DNA from: Phycisphaerales bacterium
GTDB lineage: Bacteria > Planctomycetota > Phycisphaerae > Phycisphaerales > UBA1924
Reading direction: 5' to 3'
Length of the DNA: 64,000 nucleotides
Assembly (NCBI GenBank): GCA_029260495.1
Contig: JAJDDD010000009.1
Location: forward strand, 62,001-126,000
Below the pieces are notes generated by a model. The model worked only from the letters and a program-made list of their open reading frames with translations, had not been told where the DNA came from and searched no databases. Position 1 is the first letter of the stretch. Every line of letters starts with the position of its first letter. Shown here one piece after another: positions 10,353-20,620 of this stretch. A program made the position numbers and the translations under genes.

Positions 10353-11246
10353 TCAGTCTTCATACATTGATGCAGGCGGCGCCATGGAGATGGTGACGCT
10401 GCCGTTGCTGGTGGAGATGTCAGAGTCGCGGTCGCCGGGGCCGAAGTCGAAGCGGACAGCATGCTTGCTGGTCTCGCGGACGTATTCGTGAGCGCCGTCG
10501 CCGACTCTGATTGAGCCGTTGCTGGTGCGCACGCGAAGCTCGCCTGCGAAGTTCTCCCCGACGGTCAGTGTGATCGCGCCATTGGAGGTGTCAGCTCGCA
10601 CGGGGCCGGCGTTGAGATCGCTGAGAGTCAGGCGAACGGCGCCGTTGGATGTGTCGGCGTCAATCTCGCCGGTGATGTCGCTGGCGACGATCGCGCCGTT
10701 GCTCGTATCGAGGTTGGCAGAGCCTGTGATGTGCTCAAGTTCGATGCGTCCGTTGCTTGTGCTGGCGTGGACATCGCCGTCATGATCGCGGACGGTGATT
10801 CTTCCGTTGGAAGTATCGAGAAGGGCGTAGCCAGCGAGGCCTGTGATGGTGACGGCGCCGTTGCTGGTTTTGAGTTCAACGCCGTCTGCGTCAGGGATAA
10901 GAATCTCAAAGCTGCACCCTTCGCTATTGAGCCTGCGATCGGGCCACTCTGCGAAGACCGACAAGGCGCCGCTGGCGTCGCGGTTCGCGATGATCTCGAC
11001 AGCGTCAAGGCGCTCCTGCGTGCGGGCTTTGATGTGAGCGGTGATGATGACTTCATCAGTGACGAGCGTCTGCTCGACTTGGATCGCGCCGTTTGATGTG
11101 CGCACCGCGATGGGCATGCTCGGGACGTGGGCCTGTGAGAGTGTGCGCGTCTCGCGGAAGCGGGCGTCGCCCCACGATCCGCAGCCAATCAGCAGGAGCG
11201 AGCCGACCATGATCGTGAGGGCGGCGGCGAAGCGAATCATTTTCAT
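10353..11246 (-). CDS. Lipoprotein with nine TSNG repeats (DUF4097-like)
   Basis: 297 residues. A signal sequence ends in a lipobox (LLIGC, Cys22), so the protein is predicted to be membrane-anchored. The tetrapeptide TSNG occurs nine times (as RTSNGAI, KTSNGAV, DTSNGRI, STSNGRI and so on), usually every 18-25 residues and always followed by Gly/Ala/Arg/Ser and a beta-branched residue. This spacing implies one rung of a parallel beta-helix per repeat, as in DUF4097-type adhesin-like domains. Function is unknown. The ATG at 11246 follows GGAGA. It lies 81 nt downstream of the agmatinase-like gene on the same strand. Confidence 0.8.
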   Translation of the reverse strand: MKMIRFAAALTIMVGSLLLIGCGSWGDARFRETRTLSQAHVPSMPIAVRTSNGAIQVEQTLVTDEVIITAHIKARTQERLDAVEIIANRDASGALSVFAEWPDRRLNSEGCSFEILIPDADGVELKTSNGAVTITGLAGYALLDTSNGRITVRDHDGDVHASTSNGRIELEHITGSANLDTSNGAIVASDITGEIDADTSNGAVRLTLSDLNAGPVRADTSNGAITLTVGENFAGELRVRTSNGSIRVGDGAHEYVRETSKHAVRFDFGPGDRDSDISTSNGSVTISMAPPASMYED

Positions 11247-14993: not shown

Positions 14994-15296
14994 TCCAGAT
15001 GTCCAATCGCTGTTGAGGGACATGGGGCATATTTCGGTGGGAACCACGGCGTCAATTACTGCGAATCTCGGGTAAGATGAACCGTGCAGGTACTTGCGCC
15101 CGGACGGTCGCCTGATGACAGGGGGCGGCGAAACGCTGACTTCTGCCCAGGATCGCTCAACTGGCGCGAGAATCTGCAAAGGCGAGGGCCACGATGGCGC
15201 CTCGACGTGGCGCCTGTGGTGCGCGCTGCGGTTTGATATTCCGGGAGCATTCAATGCCTCGTTGGTGGCGCGGCCTGGTGCAAGGAGTTTTTAAAA
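14994..15296 (+). promoter_or_regulatory. Upstream region of the giant protease gene
   Basis: 303 nt with no firmly supported gene. A TAAGAT hexamer (15073-15078) is the best -10 candidate. It sits 5 nt before a GTG (15084) that opens a 50-codon Arg-rich frame ending at 15236. That layout matches the leaderless pattern elsewhere in the window, so a leader peptide is possible, but its composition is not convincing. AGGAG at 15282-15286 serves the protease gene. Confidence 0.35.
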
Positions 15297-18200
15297 GTGA
15301 CACAGACCGTCATGAAGTCAAGGCGCCCACGTGCAACTGCTCTTGCGATTGCTGCTGGCGCCGCTGCGGCGCTGATGAGCGCGCAGCCTGCATCCGCCAT
15401 TAACTCAGCTCGCAATTTTTTGGGCATCTTCGAGCTTGAGTTGCTCAATATCAGAGGCGGAGGCGTACGGGTTGCCAACGTCGAAGGTGGTCATCCGTTG
15501 CCGACGCATAAGGCGCTTCAGGGGCAAATCGAGTTGCAGATCGGCTGGCCGTTCGCAAGGGCTGCTCGGGATGTGACACAAATCGTTCGCGATGAGTTCA
15601 CAGACGAGTTTATCGGGAGGCAGTGGTTCAGCACACACGCCACCGCGATGGCGTCGGCGATCGTTGGAAATTCTCAGCAAGATCAGGTGATAGGCATGGC
15701 GCCGAACGCCAAGCTGCTTTCGGGCGCGATCGCCTCGGGACTGTCAACCGCCGGCCTATCTGGCGAAGGAGGCCAACTCGAGGAACTTTCGGCGACATCG
15801 CTTGCGTTCGCGTTGTACGCGCTGACAGATCAGCAGGTCGCAGACGCGATCGCTGCGGAGCTTGGCATTCCTCCTTACGAAGTCGCGACGGTGGTTAACC
15901 TGCCCTTCGGGATTGGGGGAACAACCACGTCTCCAGCTCGAAGAGGTGATGATAGTTTCTCGCAAGTCGTTAACTCAGTTGTGACGCAGACCGGCGCGAC
16001 GATCATTGCGGCAGCTGGCAATGATGGCGACGATATTTCACTGGATCAGGCAGACCCGCCAGTCGGCTCGATGCGATCCCCGGGAGCGGCGCATAACACC
16101 ATTGGTGTCGGTTCAACCAATGACACCCAGGGAGGCGAGTTTGACAGTATTCGCCCCAACTCAAGCCGCGGTCCAATCCCAGCGATCGATTGGCGCGTGG
16201 CGGCAAGTCTTGTTCCTGATGATGCAATGGACGACCCCGGAACCGGCGAGATGCCGCCCACCGAGGATGAGGTTCCCGAGGCGAGGCCTGGCCCGGATCT
16301 CGTAAGTCCGGGTTTTCAGATTCGATTAGCTGGCTCTGAGGTGGATCCAGCAGAAAATCCGTCGCCTCAGGCCTTCTCGGATTTCTGGTCTGGAACGAGT
16401 GTCGCAAGCTCCATCACGACCGGCGCGGTCGCGTTGATCCATCAACTGGGAACTCGTGAACAACTTTGGTTTGATTTTGATGATGTGGATCCCGCTTACA
16501 ACGGTCGGCCATCGCATTTGCTGACCCGCGTGATCCTGCTGAACTCATGCCAGCGTCTTGGCGGGTATGACAGCAATGGCCGCATCATCGATATCAACAC
16601 CGGAGAAGGCTGGAACATGGGCCTGGGTTTGGACTTTGAGCAGGGCGCAGGGCGGATCGATTTTGAACGACTTCGCAGGCAATTCATCGAAGCGAGCGTT
16701 CAGGATGTGACCAATCTTTCCGAGGGATACACGACTCGTCTGTCGCGAGAATGCCCGCCTGACCCAGATGGCACTGATCCATCCGTACAGTTTTTGACTG
16801 AAGAACAAATGGCGGTGCTTCGTCAGGTGCGAGAAAATAACTACGACGTCAAAGTTGGCGAACTTCTTGTTCCGGGTCAGTTCGTTCCACCAGCCCAGGC
16901 GTACTTTGGTCTAAGCGTTGCTGACGTTGATAACGACAGTCGAAACGACATCGTTGCTATCACAGACAATCGCCGGCTCCTCTATTTTCAAAGTGATGGC
17001 GCCGCCGTTCCTGGTTTCAAAATCACTCTTATCTCAGATTCAGTTGGCGACGGAACGCTCAACAGCGCAATCTCAGTAGTGGACTTTGACGGAGATGGCG
17101 ACTTCGATATCCTCGCGAACTTCAATGACACCGCGCTCGAAGGCGGCACAACGGCCGAAACAGTCCTGCTCTCGAATAACGGCGATCGTCCGCCGGCGTT
17201 TGATCGCACGCAGATTGCATTGTTTGCTGGAAAGTCTGTTCAAGCGGCCGATTTCAACGGCGACACCAACATGGATGTCGTTCTCGCAGCTGGCACGTCT
17301 ATCTTGTGGTATGAAAATGACGGTGACACAGCGCCAGCTTTCACTCCCCGCGTTGTTGCGACTGGGGTTGTTGCAGACGCCATTCGCGCGGTGAATATCG
17401 ATGGCGATGACGATGTTGACATTGTCGCGCTCACGAATGCCGGCCTGTTCTGGTACGAGAACATCGGGGGCGAGATGATCACATTCTCGCCTGTCCCGAT
17501 AGACGCTGCGGCGTCATTGGGTCGCAACCTCATCGTGCGGGATATGAATGGCGATGGCTCGCCGGACATTGTGACAGTGAATGGATCAAACTTGGTGGTG
17601 CGACTTTCTAATGGAATGTCGCCTCCTTCATTCGCGAGTTCGACCGTTCTAACTTCGCTCGTTGAGGGCATAGATTCTGTTATCGCGGTGGATGTGGATG
17701 GGGATGGCGCCCGCGATTTGGTCGCTGCATCCAATACGTCGGCTGAGATTATCTGGCTTCGAAATGATGGCGCCGCGAGTTCAACATTTTCAGAAAACTT
17801 CCTCACAGCTGACCCCTCATCTGAAATTACGTTCGCCGGCCTGCTCGCAGCCGGGGCCGTGAATTCGGATGGCCGGCTCGATGTCACATCAGCCTCTCTC
17901 TCGAACGGACGTATCGCGTGGTATCAGGCAGACAATGGCGTCCCCCCGGTGTTTACCAGGCGATTGGTCACGGATGGCACGGCCACTGAGGGATCATTTA
18001 TCGTGCCTTTGGGCACTGATCCGCGTGTGCCGTTTTCGACGATCAAGGCTGACAATGAGTTCTTTCCCGGCGGCGCGTGCGCCCCTGAAGATCCTGATGG
18101 CTCAGGCCCGCCGATTGCTCGCAGCGTCGTGAACTTCCATCGGCCGCAACCGCCGGCGCACGATCTTCAAATTGGTGGATTCAATGATGACCCGGATCTG

Positions 18201-20555
18201 GATGGTGGCGGTCGCACGCCGGACCTCGATGAGGGTGGCAACATCCCAGGCACCCCGCCAAGCCCCCAGCCAGTTCCCAATCCGCGTTTTCCTCCTCCAA
18301 GACCATCTCCAAATCCCGACGGCGATAATAATCTTGAAGAGTTTCGCACTGGCTGGGACATCGGCCTCGCCGGGCGAGGCTTCATAGAGATTCCAATCGG
18401 CTTTATTCCCGCGGGGAGCAATGTCGCAGCGACGCTCGCATTCGAGCGGCATGAACAATGGGATGTGCCTGACTTCGCCACTGCCCTTGGCGCCATGGTC
18501 GCCAGCGCTGATAACGGATTTATTCCCGGTCTCGATGCAGAATCCGCTCGAAACCTTGTCGTCAACGATCTTCGCCCTGCTGGGCGCGGCGCCCAGGCGG
18601 CAATGCGAGTTCGCACGCCTGAACAGCAGGCTCGCTTTGATCGGCTCGTCGCCGACGCGAAGCACAAGCATGTTCAACCTGTTGAGCTTGGACGATTCAG
18701 TCACACCGTCACAGCAGACGGCGAATGTCACTGCGGCTCTAGGTACCCGGTCGTTCCGATGCCGGATGGCTCGATTCTTCCCGGCCCGGTTGCTGAAAAG
18801 CTCATTGGGGAAGCGCTTGATGCTGTCAATCGCGCTCCCAAGACTGATCTTGCGACAAGATTCGCTCGTGGCACGGTCACGCCAACGCGTAAGTTTGCAA
18901 TTTCGATCGCCAACGATGAAGAGGCGACCGACGAGTTCATCGCCGGCATTCAGCAGGCAGCCACACTCTGGGAGAGTGTGATCGGTGATGACGTCATCAT
19001 TCGCATCAACGTTGGATTTGCAGCCGGGTTGGGCTCAGTGATCGCCGCCGCCAACTCCACCACGATGGGCCTTCCGTATTCTGATTTTCGTCAGGCTCTT
19101 GTCCTTGACGCCAACGACGGCCTCGACGCGATGGGCAATGCGGATGGCACACCGAATGAGAAAACTTTGATGGAAAGCCTGCCAGCGAATGCTTCCAGCA
19201 TGCGTCTGCGCTTCTTTGGGCGTCCCGTTGACCAGCCGAACATCGTTGCCCTGAGTGGCCCCTTTGAAAGCGCTATCGCATTCACGAGCGCCAATGGGAA
19301 AGCTCTCGGACTTGTCGATGAGAGCGGCGAGCCGGTCCTGGATGCGACAATCACTTTCAATACAGATTTTACCCCTGTGCTGAACCCAAATGGTCCGCTT
19401 GACATGAATGAGTACGACATTGTCGCTGTCATGGCGCATGAAATGGGGCACATGCTGGGTTTCGTCAGTGGAGTCGACCAGTTTGGTGGGCTGAACAATC
19501 TTCCCAATGCGCTGGACATCTTCCGCTTTGCGGACGGCGCGAGCAACTCACCACAGCAACTTGCCGATCCTCTTCAGGCGGATCCACTGAATGTTGATGA
19601 CTTCACCAACTTCCGTCGAGAGTTCAGCTACGGCATTGAAGCCAACCTGGATACGGTTGGCGCACTTCCAGGGGTGTCACCGAGCAACTCTGAGATTCGT
19701 TTCTCAACAGGCTCGCCTTCGGCACAGATGGTCGCGGACCGTGATCCCGACCTGGAGGTGTACATGCCGGATGGCAGGCAGGCGAGCCACTGGAAAGATG
19801 ATTCCTTGCTCGGACTTGGCCAGAACATCGGCATCATGGATCCCACCTTTGAAGACGGTCAGGTTGTTGAGGGGTTCCTGACTCAGGCTGACCTCATCGC
19901 ATTCAGTCTGATTGGTTGGGACATCGATTACATCAACTTCACGCCCATCGTTCCGCCTGAGGGTGGTGTGCCGAATGTTCGTCCGGTTCCACTTTCTGAT
20001 GAATCCCTCATTGACCTGCTTGAACCTTTGTTCGAGTTTGAGTTTGAAAACCTTGATCTTGAGCTCATCCGACTTTCTGTGGGTGATGGTGAACCCAACG
20101 AAGTTATTGCTGTATCGCAATCCCAATGGAACAACATCGAGTTTATCGCGGTTGGTCCGGGCTCAGGCGCTGCGGCTGCCAACGCGGGCGCCGGCCTGCC
20201 TGGCGGACAATACCTATTGCGTATTCGATTCGCAGGCACAACCTTTGACTTGGGGGGCTCCGAAATCGTTTCAACTGATAGCAACGGCGTCCCCGGCTTC
20301 ACCGATCTGACTGACGCTCAAGTTCCCTACGCTTTGGCGTGGTATATCGATCTGGCGGATATTGAGGGCGACGCAGGAACTTCGCCAGCATCCCTGCGAG
20401 CAGACCTTTCCAGCGATGGCGTTATCGACGCGACTGACCTGGCAATGTTGCTCGGTGTGTGGGGGACGGATCACCCCTCCGCGGATCTGAACGGCGACGG
20501 GAAGGTCAATGCTGCGGATATGGCGGCGCTGCTCGGCGCCTTCAGCGCTCCATAA
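15297..20555 (+). CDS. Giant secreted protein: subtilisin-like domain, VCBS repeats, zinc protease, dockerin-like tail
   Basis: 1752 residues. The GTG at 15297 follows AGGAG by 10 nt; the ATG at 15312 is the alternative. A signal peptide ends near Ala-Ser-Ala (about residue 34). The subtilase-like domain (about 50-490) keeps His114 (STHATAMAS), oxyanion Asn242 (AAGND) and Ser368 (SGTSVASS). The usual Asp position reads VANVEGGHP, with Glu63. Seven FG-GAP/VCBS units (DxDGDGxxD type, about 530-890) follow, then a Pro-rich linker (about 975-1020). A zincin domain has HEMGH at 1381-1385. The last 55 residues form two EF-hand-like dockerin repeats (DLSSDGVIDATDLAMLL and DLNGDGKVNAADMAALL). It is probably an extracellular or surface degradative enzyme. 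Confidence 0.9.
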   Translation: MTQTVMKSRRPRATALAIAAGAAAALMSAQPASAINSARNFLGIFELELLNIRGGGVRVANVEGGHPLPTHKALQGQIELQIGWPFARAARDVTQIVRDEFTDEFIGRQWFSTHATAMASAIVGNSQQDQVIGMAPNAKLLSGAIASGLSTAGLSGEGGQLEELSATSLAFALYALTDQQVADAIAAELGIPPYEVATVVNLPFGIGGTTTSPARRGDDSFSQVVNSVVTQTGATIIAAAGNDGDDISLDQADPPVGSMRSPGAAHNTIGVGSTNDTQGGEFDSIRPNSSRGPIPAIDWRVAASLVPDDAMDDPGTGEMPPTEDEVPEARPGPDLVSPGFQIRLAGSEVDPAENPSPQAFSDFWSGTSVASSITTGAVALIHQLGTREQLWFDFDDVDPAYNGRPSHLLTRVILLNSCQRLGGYDSNGRIIDINTGEGWNMGLGLDFEQGAGRIDFERLRRQFIEASVQDVTNLSEGYTTRLSRECPPDPDGTDPSVQFLTEEQMAVLRQVRENNYDVKVGELLVPGQFVPPAQAYFGLSVADVDNDSRNDIVAITDNRRLLYFQSDGAAVPGFKITLISDSVGDGTLNSAISVVDFDGDGDFDILANFNDTALEGGTTAETVLLSNNGDRPPAFDRTQIALFAGKSVQAADFNGDTNMDVVLAAGTSILWYENDGDTAPAFTPRVVATGVVADAIRAVNIDGDDDVDIVALTNAGLFWYENIGGEMITFSPVPIDAAASLGRNLIVRDMNGDGSPDIVTVNGSNLVVRLSNGMSPPSFASSTVLTSLVEGIDSVIAVDVDGDGARDLVAASNTSAEIIWLRNDGAASSTFSENFLTADPSSEITFAGLLAAGAVNSDGRLDVTSASLSNGRIAWYQADNGVPPVFTRRLVTDGTATEGSFIVPLGTDPRVPFSTIKADNEFFPGGACAPEDPDGSGPPIARSVVNFHRPQPPAHDLQIGGFNDDPDLDGGGRTPDLDEGGNIPGTPPSPQPVPNPRFPPPRPSPNPDGDNNLEEFRTGWDIGLAGRGFIEIPIGFIPAGSNVAATLAFERHEQWDVPDFATALGAMVASADNGFIPGLDAESARNLVVNDLRPAGRGAQAAMRVRTPEQQARFDRLVADAKHKHVQPVELGRFSHTVTADGECHCGSRYPVVPMPDGSILPGPVAEKLIGEALDAVNRAPKTDLATRFARGTVTPTRKFAISIANDEEATDEFIAGIQQAATLWESVIGDDVIIRINVGFAAGLGSVIAAANSTTMGLPYSDFRQALVLDANDGLDAMGNADGTPNEKTLMESLPANASSMRLRFFGRPVDQPNIVALSGPFESAIAFTSANGKALGLVDESGEPVLDATITFNTDFTPVLNPNGPLDMNEYDIVAVMAHEMGHMLGFVSGVDQFGGLNNLPNALDIFRFADGASNSPQQLADPLQADPLNVDDFTNFRREFSYGIEANLDTVGALPGVSPSNSEIRFSTGSPSAQMVADRDPDLEVYMPDGRQASHWKDDSLLGLGQNIGIMDPTFEDGQVVEGFLTQADLIAFSLIGWDIDYINFTPIVPPEGGVPNVRPVPLSDESLIDLLEPLFEFEFENLDLELIRLSVGDGEPNEVIAVSQSQWNNIEFIAVGPGSGAAAANAGAGLPGGQYLLRIRFAGTTFDLGGSEIVSTDSNGVPGFTDLTDAQVPYALAWYIDLADIEGDAGTSPASLRADLSSDGVIDATDLAMLLGVWGTDHPSADLNGDGKVNAADMAALLGAFSAP

Positions 20556-20592: not shown

Positions 20593-20620
20593 GCCCCGGG
20601 CTTCGGCTCGGGGCTTTTTT
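20593..20620 (+). terminator. Rho-independent terminator with TTCG tetraloop
   Basis: A 9-bp GC stem (GCCCCGGGC and GCTCGGGGC, one wobble) is capped by TTCG and followed by TTTTTT (20615-20620), 38 nt after the protease stop. Confidence 0.92.

Follow-up and report, generated by a model that had tools for sequence, protein, structure and literature searches.

Subtilisin, with its Asp-His-Ser triad, is a textbook example of invariant catalytic chemistry. In the S53 sedolisins, which share the subtilisin-like fold, Glu replaces the catalytic His and Asp replaces the oxyanion Asn. Alkaline protease KP-43 (solved as 1wmd) is an S8A subtilase with a C-terminal beta-domain and a triad Asp, and subtilases of this type are not known to carry a zincin, a propeller, or a dockerin. 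In searches of open PubMed Central papers, none of the titles or abstract starts listed describes a Glu-type subtilase or a nested or fused subtilase-metalloprotease. Cohesin-dockerin peptidase complexes (the "planctosome") have been proposed in freshwater Planctomycetes; these consist of separate peptidase proteins and need cohesins (PMC6461901).

Here, we describe a gene from the 3.2-Mb assembly of a Phycisphaerales bacterium (GCA_029260495.1), situated within a 64,000-nt stretch of contig JAJDDD010000009.1 (positions 62,001 to 126,000 of the forward strand; hereafter, the window). As in 1wmd-type S8A subtilases, the gene product has an S8 domain followed by a beta-domain, but the residue in the position of the triad acid is Glu. 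Like the S53 sedolisins, it has a Glu in its catalytic set; however, the S53 Glu occupies the His position, whereas the Glu of the window protein occupies the Asp position and the His is kept. Like the components of the planctosome (PMC6461901), it is a predicted secreted planctomycete peptidase with a dockerin, but it is one chain, and its genome contains a single, sub-threshold cohesin match.

We consider it probable, on the basis of sequence comparisons, that the gene encodes a secreted two-protease protein: a Ser-His-Glu subtilase, a metzincin-like protease that splits the C-terminal sandwich of this subtilase, a propeller, and a dockerin tag. The protein would be secreted to the planctomycete cell surface or surroundings, and in its first active site Glu63 is predicted to orient and charge His114, His114 to activate Ser368, and Asn242 to lie in the oxyanion hole. 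The metzincin-like protease is predicted to use His1381, His1385, and His1498 as ligands and Glu1382 as base; by splitting the sandwich, it would place a second active site on the tail of the subtilase, and the two sites might cooperate. If this is true, a Glu-for-Asp lineage with Asp in close relatives offers a ready experiment on the importance of acid length, and a protease nested in the accessory domain of another protease would be an unusual two-class combination in one secreted chain. The Glu lineage and the nested zincin are the main additions to the first-pass annotation of this DNA. Family annotation displays neither of them, because the Pfam S8 match starts after Glu63 and the sandwich of the window protein is matched by nothing in Pfam or NCBIfam. 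The features of the gene are as follows (window coordinates):

15282..15287, + strand: Shine-Dalgarno-like AAGGAG, 9 nt 5′ of the GTG, read from the sequence
15297..20555, + strand: whole gene, 1,752 aa; continuous open frame from GTG (15297) to the stop (20555), 1,752 codons
15297..15398, + strand: predicted signal peptide, residues 1 to 34; basic start, hydrophobic stretch, and ASA before INSARNF, read from the sequence
15399..16721, + strand: S8-like catalytic domain, residues 35 to 475; Pfam Peptidase_S8 (PF00082) at residues 100 to 383 (61.6 bits; cut-off, 21.8), alignments A1 and A7, and profile matches to solved subtilases
15483..15485, + strand: Glu63, catalytic-Asp position; family alignments and structure-sequence profile
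15636..15638, + strand: His114, catalytic His position; no exception among the 9 rows of A1 or the 19 rows of A7, the latter picked for Glu
16020..16022, + strand: Asn242, oxyanion-hole position; the column is Asn in 27 and Asp in 2 of 29 Glu rows
16398..16400, + strand: Ser368, nucleophile position; invariant in A1 and A7
16884..17981, + strand: seven FG-GAP/VCBS repeats, residues about 530 to 895, between the S8 domain and the sandwich; PF13517, PF01839, and Ca loops
18345..18509, + strand: first part of the C-terminal beta-sandwich, residues 1017 to 1071; sandwich profile positions 1 to 59
18510..20027, + strand: insert in the sandwich, residues 1072 to 1577; lies between profile halves that meet at position 59 and is absent in L054
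18933..19922, + strand: NF038122 metalloprotease (zincin), residues 1213 to 1542; 184.6 bits in the NCBIfam scan (cut-off, 80)
19437..19451, + strand: HEMGH zinc-binding motif, residues 1381 to 1385; HExxH in 10/10 members read, 9 of which were picked by the motif
19788..19790, + strand: His1498 (SHW), probable third zinc ligand; kept in 10/10 and not a picking criterion
19836..19838, + strand: Met1514, Met-turn (MDP); kept in 10/10 and not a picking criterion
20028..20354, + strand: second part of the C-terminal beta-sandwich, residues 1578 to 1686; sandwich profile positions 59 to 139
20400..20531, + strand: type I dockerin-like domain, residues 1702 to 1745; Dockerin_1 (PF00404), 25.8 bits in the Pfam scan (cut-off, 22.9), and GC-type dockerin NF041540, 31.6 bits in the NCBIfam scan of the window protein (cut-off, 29)
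20593..20620, + strand: terminator-like hairpin with a T run; such sites do not exceed chance in this region, with 5 found versus 5.5 expected

An S8-like domain, FG-GAP repeats, a zincin, and a dockerin had been noted before in one secreted 1,752-residue chain, and the open frame, together with the Pfam and NCBIfam matches, bears this out: along the chain, the order is S8, FG-GAP repeats, NF038122 metalloprotease, dockerin. The residue numbers assigned at that time to Glu63, His114, Asn242, Ser368, and HEMGH are also correct in the translation. The predicted signal peptide, read by eye, ends in ...QPASA at residue 34; according to the sequence, no inhibitor-type propeptide lies ahead of the S8 domain, so that normal subtilisin maturation would not apply, which counts against the two-protease reading. 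The nearest kin of the protein (1,302 aa) was found in G009 when the source genome and 60 relatives (61 genomes in all) were searched, and among 400 sampled genomes of the order, the S8 domain finds a match at an E value of 0.001 or better in 11, including its own. S8, zincin, and dockerin also occur in this order and in one frame in the relatives from G009 and G083, the latter protein being 1,303 aa long. As both relatives share the order, it is not an accident of assembly, and with the continuous frame, it rules out a frameshift or assembly error as the origin of the chain. Relatives in G270, G080, and G031 consist of S8, sandwich, and dockerin-like end without the zincin, although the dockerin match in G031 scores under the Pfam cut-off; in this zincin-free G031 protein (L004), the weak dockerin is followed by a long, Lys-rich C-terminal tail.

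The FG-GAP block has a narrower distribution. None of the 11 S8-family relatives scanned with Pfam has an FG-GAP match, and the G009 protein, which lacks the block, matches window protein residues 12 to 473 and 958 to 1750. The earlier count of seven repeats is fair, in that there are six full Ca-loop motifs (residues 543, 596, 652, 700, 749, and 799) and one degenerate loop, AVNSDGRLD, recognized by eye near residue 850. The seven-repeat propeller probably binds substrate or a surface.

Because the Pfam S8 match begins after the Asp motif, Pfam alone does not place Glu63; its position comes from family alignments and from profile comparison with solved structures. In alignment A1 (9 rows), the Glu63 column contains Glu in six rows, Asp in two (L046 and L047), and Ser in one (L004). 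When 51 family rows are aligned jointly with 13 ordinary S8 rows, all 13 of the ordinary rows have Asp in the acid column, and the family rows have Glu in 29 (two of them unsure: L096, which reads Gly in its profile match, and L083, placed by the joint alignment only), Asp in 8, Cys in 9, Ser in 3, Asn in 1, and Ala in 1, with the caveat that in about 14 of the 51 rows, including all Cys rows but one, the profile match falls short of the acid column, and the joint alignment alone places it. Duplicate loci were removed both before and in the 51-row count (13 and 13), from which the untrimmable L120 is absent. Alignment A7 (19 rows) was picked for Glu, and its invariant Glu is, as such, no evidence. 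The A1 profile matches 89 sequences of solved structures at an E value of 0.001 or better (best, 1wmd at 6e-20 and 5fax at 6.7e-19), and against the three best-matching solved subtilases, the family-consensus Glu pairs with Asp. In a control set of ordinary S8 proteins (30 loci from 15 genomes, both strands), 28 reach the acid column, 27 with Asp and 1 with Glu. The single Glu row, L131 from G005, reads IGITELGFF there and keeps the His and the Ser.

The first-pass annotation had taken Glu63 as the equivalent of the triad Asp, while allowing that another acidic residue, such as one near residues 46 to 60, might hold the triad position. The alignment contains no conserved acid at 46 to 60, and residues 46 and 48 do not appear among the columns with an acid in 60% or more of the 29 Glu rows. 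No second column in that list is acidic in every Glu row: besides the Glu63 column, the best reach 93% (Asn226 in the window protein) and 83% (Asp334), and the rest are at or below 72%. Every Glu and Asp row has an acid in the Glu63 column by definition; the informative part is that this holds for no other column, which speaks against a different acidic residue as the triad member. With Glu or Asp in relatives and with a profile that pairs it with the subtilase Asp, the assignment of Glu63 to the triad-acid position is largely settled by alignment; an AlphaFold model of this catalytic domain, 441 aa long and built from 4 rows, has a mean pLDDT of 27.8, too low to read geometry. In terms of classification, the catalytic domain is homologous to S8 (PF00082), and His114, Ser368, and Asn242 stand in the aligned columns, but the column of the catalytic Asp is occupied by Glu63; we therefore file the protein as a Glu variant related to S8 and not as a canonical S8 peptidase. 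Membership in S53 is ruled out, since His114 and Asn242 are kept.

The Glu variant follows descent. On a tree of 61 rows (without L075, L096, and L081), the Glu label requires 6 changes, versus a mean of 20.3 when labels are shuffled; Asp rows are embedded among the Glu rows, with L045 (Glu) and L046 (Asp), for example, being sisters at 100/100, and the branch that parts ordinary S8 proteins from the rest is weak (32/85). The alignment rows are themselves related by descent and are not independent. A search of a 392-genome sample of the phylum returned five matches above 300 bits (the window protein and four others, all with Glu, one of which, from G049, was in the search profile), with the rest below 140 bits, a gap that is partly present by construction because the rows of the profile were picked for Glu. 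The 25 loci read from this lower group show Asp in 19 cases, Glu in 2, Ser in 1, a gap in 2, and in 1 a Leu that has Asp beside it and is probably misaligned. To judge from the aligned sequences, Glu is the mark of a lineage that extends beyond this class. The nine Cys rows and the Ala row (L102), from other families of the class (L092, L094, L095, L097, and L099 to L104), form a well-supported branch of ten with a motif like VICRSMTY at the acid column; they keep the His, Asn, and Ser, and mostly have W-S-S or a variant of it in place of G-T-S. We see about an even chance that these proteins represent a planctomycete subtilase lineage with an evolvable triad acid (Glu being commonest, Asp apparently regained more than once depending on the root, and Cys in one branch, each of the three retaining His and Ser), one Glu twig of which would have a complete zinc protease inserted in its tail domain and, thus, two mutually placed active sites, one of them Ser-His-Glu.

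The zincin of the window protein scores above the NF038122 cut-off and possesses the HExxH, the third His, and the Met-turn of that family, and zinc binding is predicted. The set of zincins read here was picked by HExxH; L016, which was left out of that set, reads HEMAH, SHW, and MDP. Among solved sequences, karilysin and other metzincins come nearest, matching around HExxH only. The source genome also encodes a stand-alone NF038122 zincin with a dockerin-like end (L165:1060-2505, contig C9), 46% identical to the nested one; NF038122 members stand alone in other proteins, L165 being one of them, whereas the member in the window protein is inserted in the subtilase sandwich. A profile of this sandwich draws on 11 relatives whose corresponding stretch is 124 to 211 residues long, too short for a zincin (one of the 11 rows, L162, was trimmed too early). 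It matches the window protein twice, in the consecutive halves 1 to 59 and 59 to 139, with 506 residues between them, and also matches in two pieces in the other zincin-bearing proteins (1 to 71 and 61 to 139 in L053; 2 to 51 and 57 to 139 in L052), such that in all three the second piece begins at profile position 57 to 61. The same profile gives no reportable match in the stand-alone L165. As the halves are consecutive around the insert, the zincin sits in a loop of the sandwich; at the level of sequence, then, it is nested inside the C-terminal sandwich of the subtilase, an arrangement missed in the earlier reading. The zincin-free L004 is sister to the zincin-bearing L044 in the tree (99/91), which implies either loss of the insert in L004 or more than one gain of it. 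Two cysteines, Cys1144 and Cys1146 (DGECHCG, window 18726-18734), precede the zincin motif, and a Cys occurs 204 to 237 residues before HExxH in the window protein, L052, L053, L165, and L005; a cysteine switch is conceivable but too weak to claim, as there are Cys residues at other places too.

Whether the S8-like domain is active or a binding module had been called unclear, and conservation in relatives now narrows this question in favor of a predicted active enzyme. Among the 29 Glu rows, the His is kept in all and the Ser in 27 (the exceptions are L063, with Glu in the Ser column, and L075, whose contig ends before the Ser), and the oxyanion column is Asn or Asp in all 29, whereas four rows of a sister group (L071, L072, L073, and L076) have lost both the His and the Ser. 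Decay therefore occurs in this lineage, and because His and Ser go where catalysis is plainly lost, we prefer a functional Ser-His-Glu subtilase to a binding module as the interpretation. A pseudoprotease that acts as scaffold or binding module and leaves the cutting to the zincin alone seems doubtful to us: the triad Asp is indeed absent from the domain, the same group does hold those plainly dead S8 domains, the acid column reads Ser in the close relative L004, and the window protein has a specific Pro in VVNLPFG (Ser, Ala, or Met nearby in other A1 rows) that presumably lies near the substrate cleft, judging from the subtilisin structure, but the retention of His and Ser in the Glu rows speaks against this explanation, as does the Asp that L046, L047, L062, and L066, all members of the clade, have at the very same column. 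The Cys-type branch, by keeping His and Ser without the acid, makes a weaker case for the kept residues as proof of a normal triad; together with L004, where both residues are likewise kept, it suggests that the triad acid may be partly dispensable, or supplied from elsewhere, in this lineage. The nested position of the zincin faces an alternative of its own, an ordinary tandem fusion in which a separate zincin domain is followed by an unrelated sandwich. The first sandwich half reaches no more than 25.1 bits in the window protein, and the nested arrangement is predicted from sequence; nevertheless, the consecutive profile halves, the shared starting point of the second half in three proteins, and the contiguity of the same two stretches in L054, which lacks the insert, make a tandem fusion very improbable, and in an AlphaFold model of sandwich plus zincin (676 aa, 4 rows; mean pLDDT, 31.4), the 43 residues with a pLDDT of at least 50 fall in the two sandwich halves.

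A further alternative to the two-protease protein with a dockerin tag concerns its C terminus, which would dock the protein to a cohesin-bearing scaffold in a protease complex like the planctosome (PMC6461901). The dockerin-like tail itself holds up well, with both of its scores above cut-off and with the two Ca-binding repeats of a type I dockerin (DLSSDGVID at residue 1703 and DLNGDGKVN at 1730), and a cohesin-like stretch does exist in the source genome, in a matrixin-like protein whose gene adjoins one for an S8 protease with a dockerin; a complex of this kind has, moreover, been proposed for freshwater Planctomycetes. However, this stretch is the only cohesin-like match in the genome and remains below the cut-off of 24.1 bits (22.7 and 19.6 bits in two scans), versus at least 66 dockerin matches (the window protein included) among the 150 of 263 candidates that were scored. 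Across 41 genomes, the source genome included, dockerin matches occur in 39 and cohesin matches of any score in 4 (over the cut-off in 3). In addition, with the window protein left out, no more than about 60 residues separate the dockerin from the stop in 18 of 20 loci read from the best 24, as expected of a tag (of the other two, one has an internal dockerin and one escaped the search pattern). The cohesin-bound state that the first-pass annotation had suggested is thus not supported, and we regard docking to a scaffold as quite unlikely. The simplest reading of these sequences is that the dockerin is a C-terminal tag: it would be a calcium-binding tag of the kind found on many exported proteins of the group and not proof of a cellulosome-like partner.

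The two adjoining genes lie on contig C6 and encode an S8 protease of the ordinary type whose dockerin is borderline (L164:1276-3654) and the matrixin-like protease with the sub-threshold cohesin-like domain (L164:3865-5568); these neighbors are a possible dockerin-cohesin pair.

A different pairing of metalloprotease and subtilase appears in a sister group from five genomes (G022, G362, G001, G286, and G011), where a matrixin-like domain lies N-terminal to the S8 domain. In G001, this domain comes near the Pfam cut-off (22.3 of 24 bits), and the likeness in the other four was recognized by eye, as was the loss of HExxH from the domain in all five genomes (L163, L155, L156, L157, and L048; e.g., AREIGTAVGLGPAC). 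The domain is, by its sequence motifs, an apparent pseudo-metalloprotease, and a zincin and this subtilase may have been joined in two different arrangements, once with the zinc ligands intact and once with the ligands lost. Elsewhere in the window, on the minus strand at 10353-11246, is a gene for a predicted protein of 297 aa that begins like a lipoprotein, repeats the TSNG motif many times, and probably adopts a beta-repeat fold.
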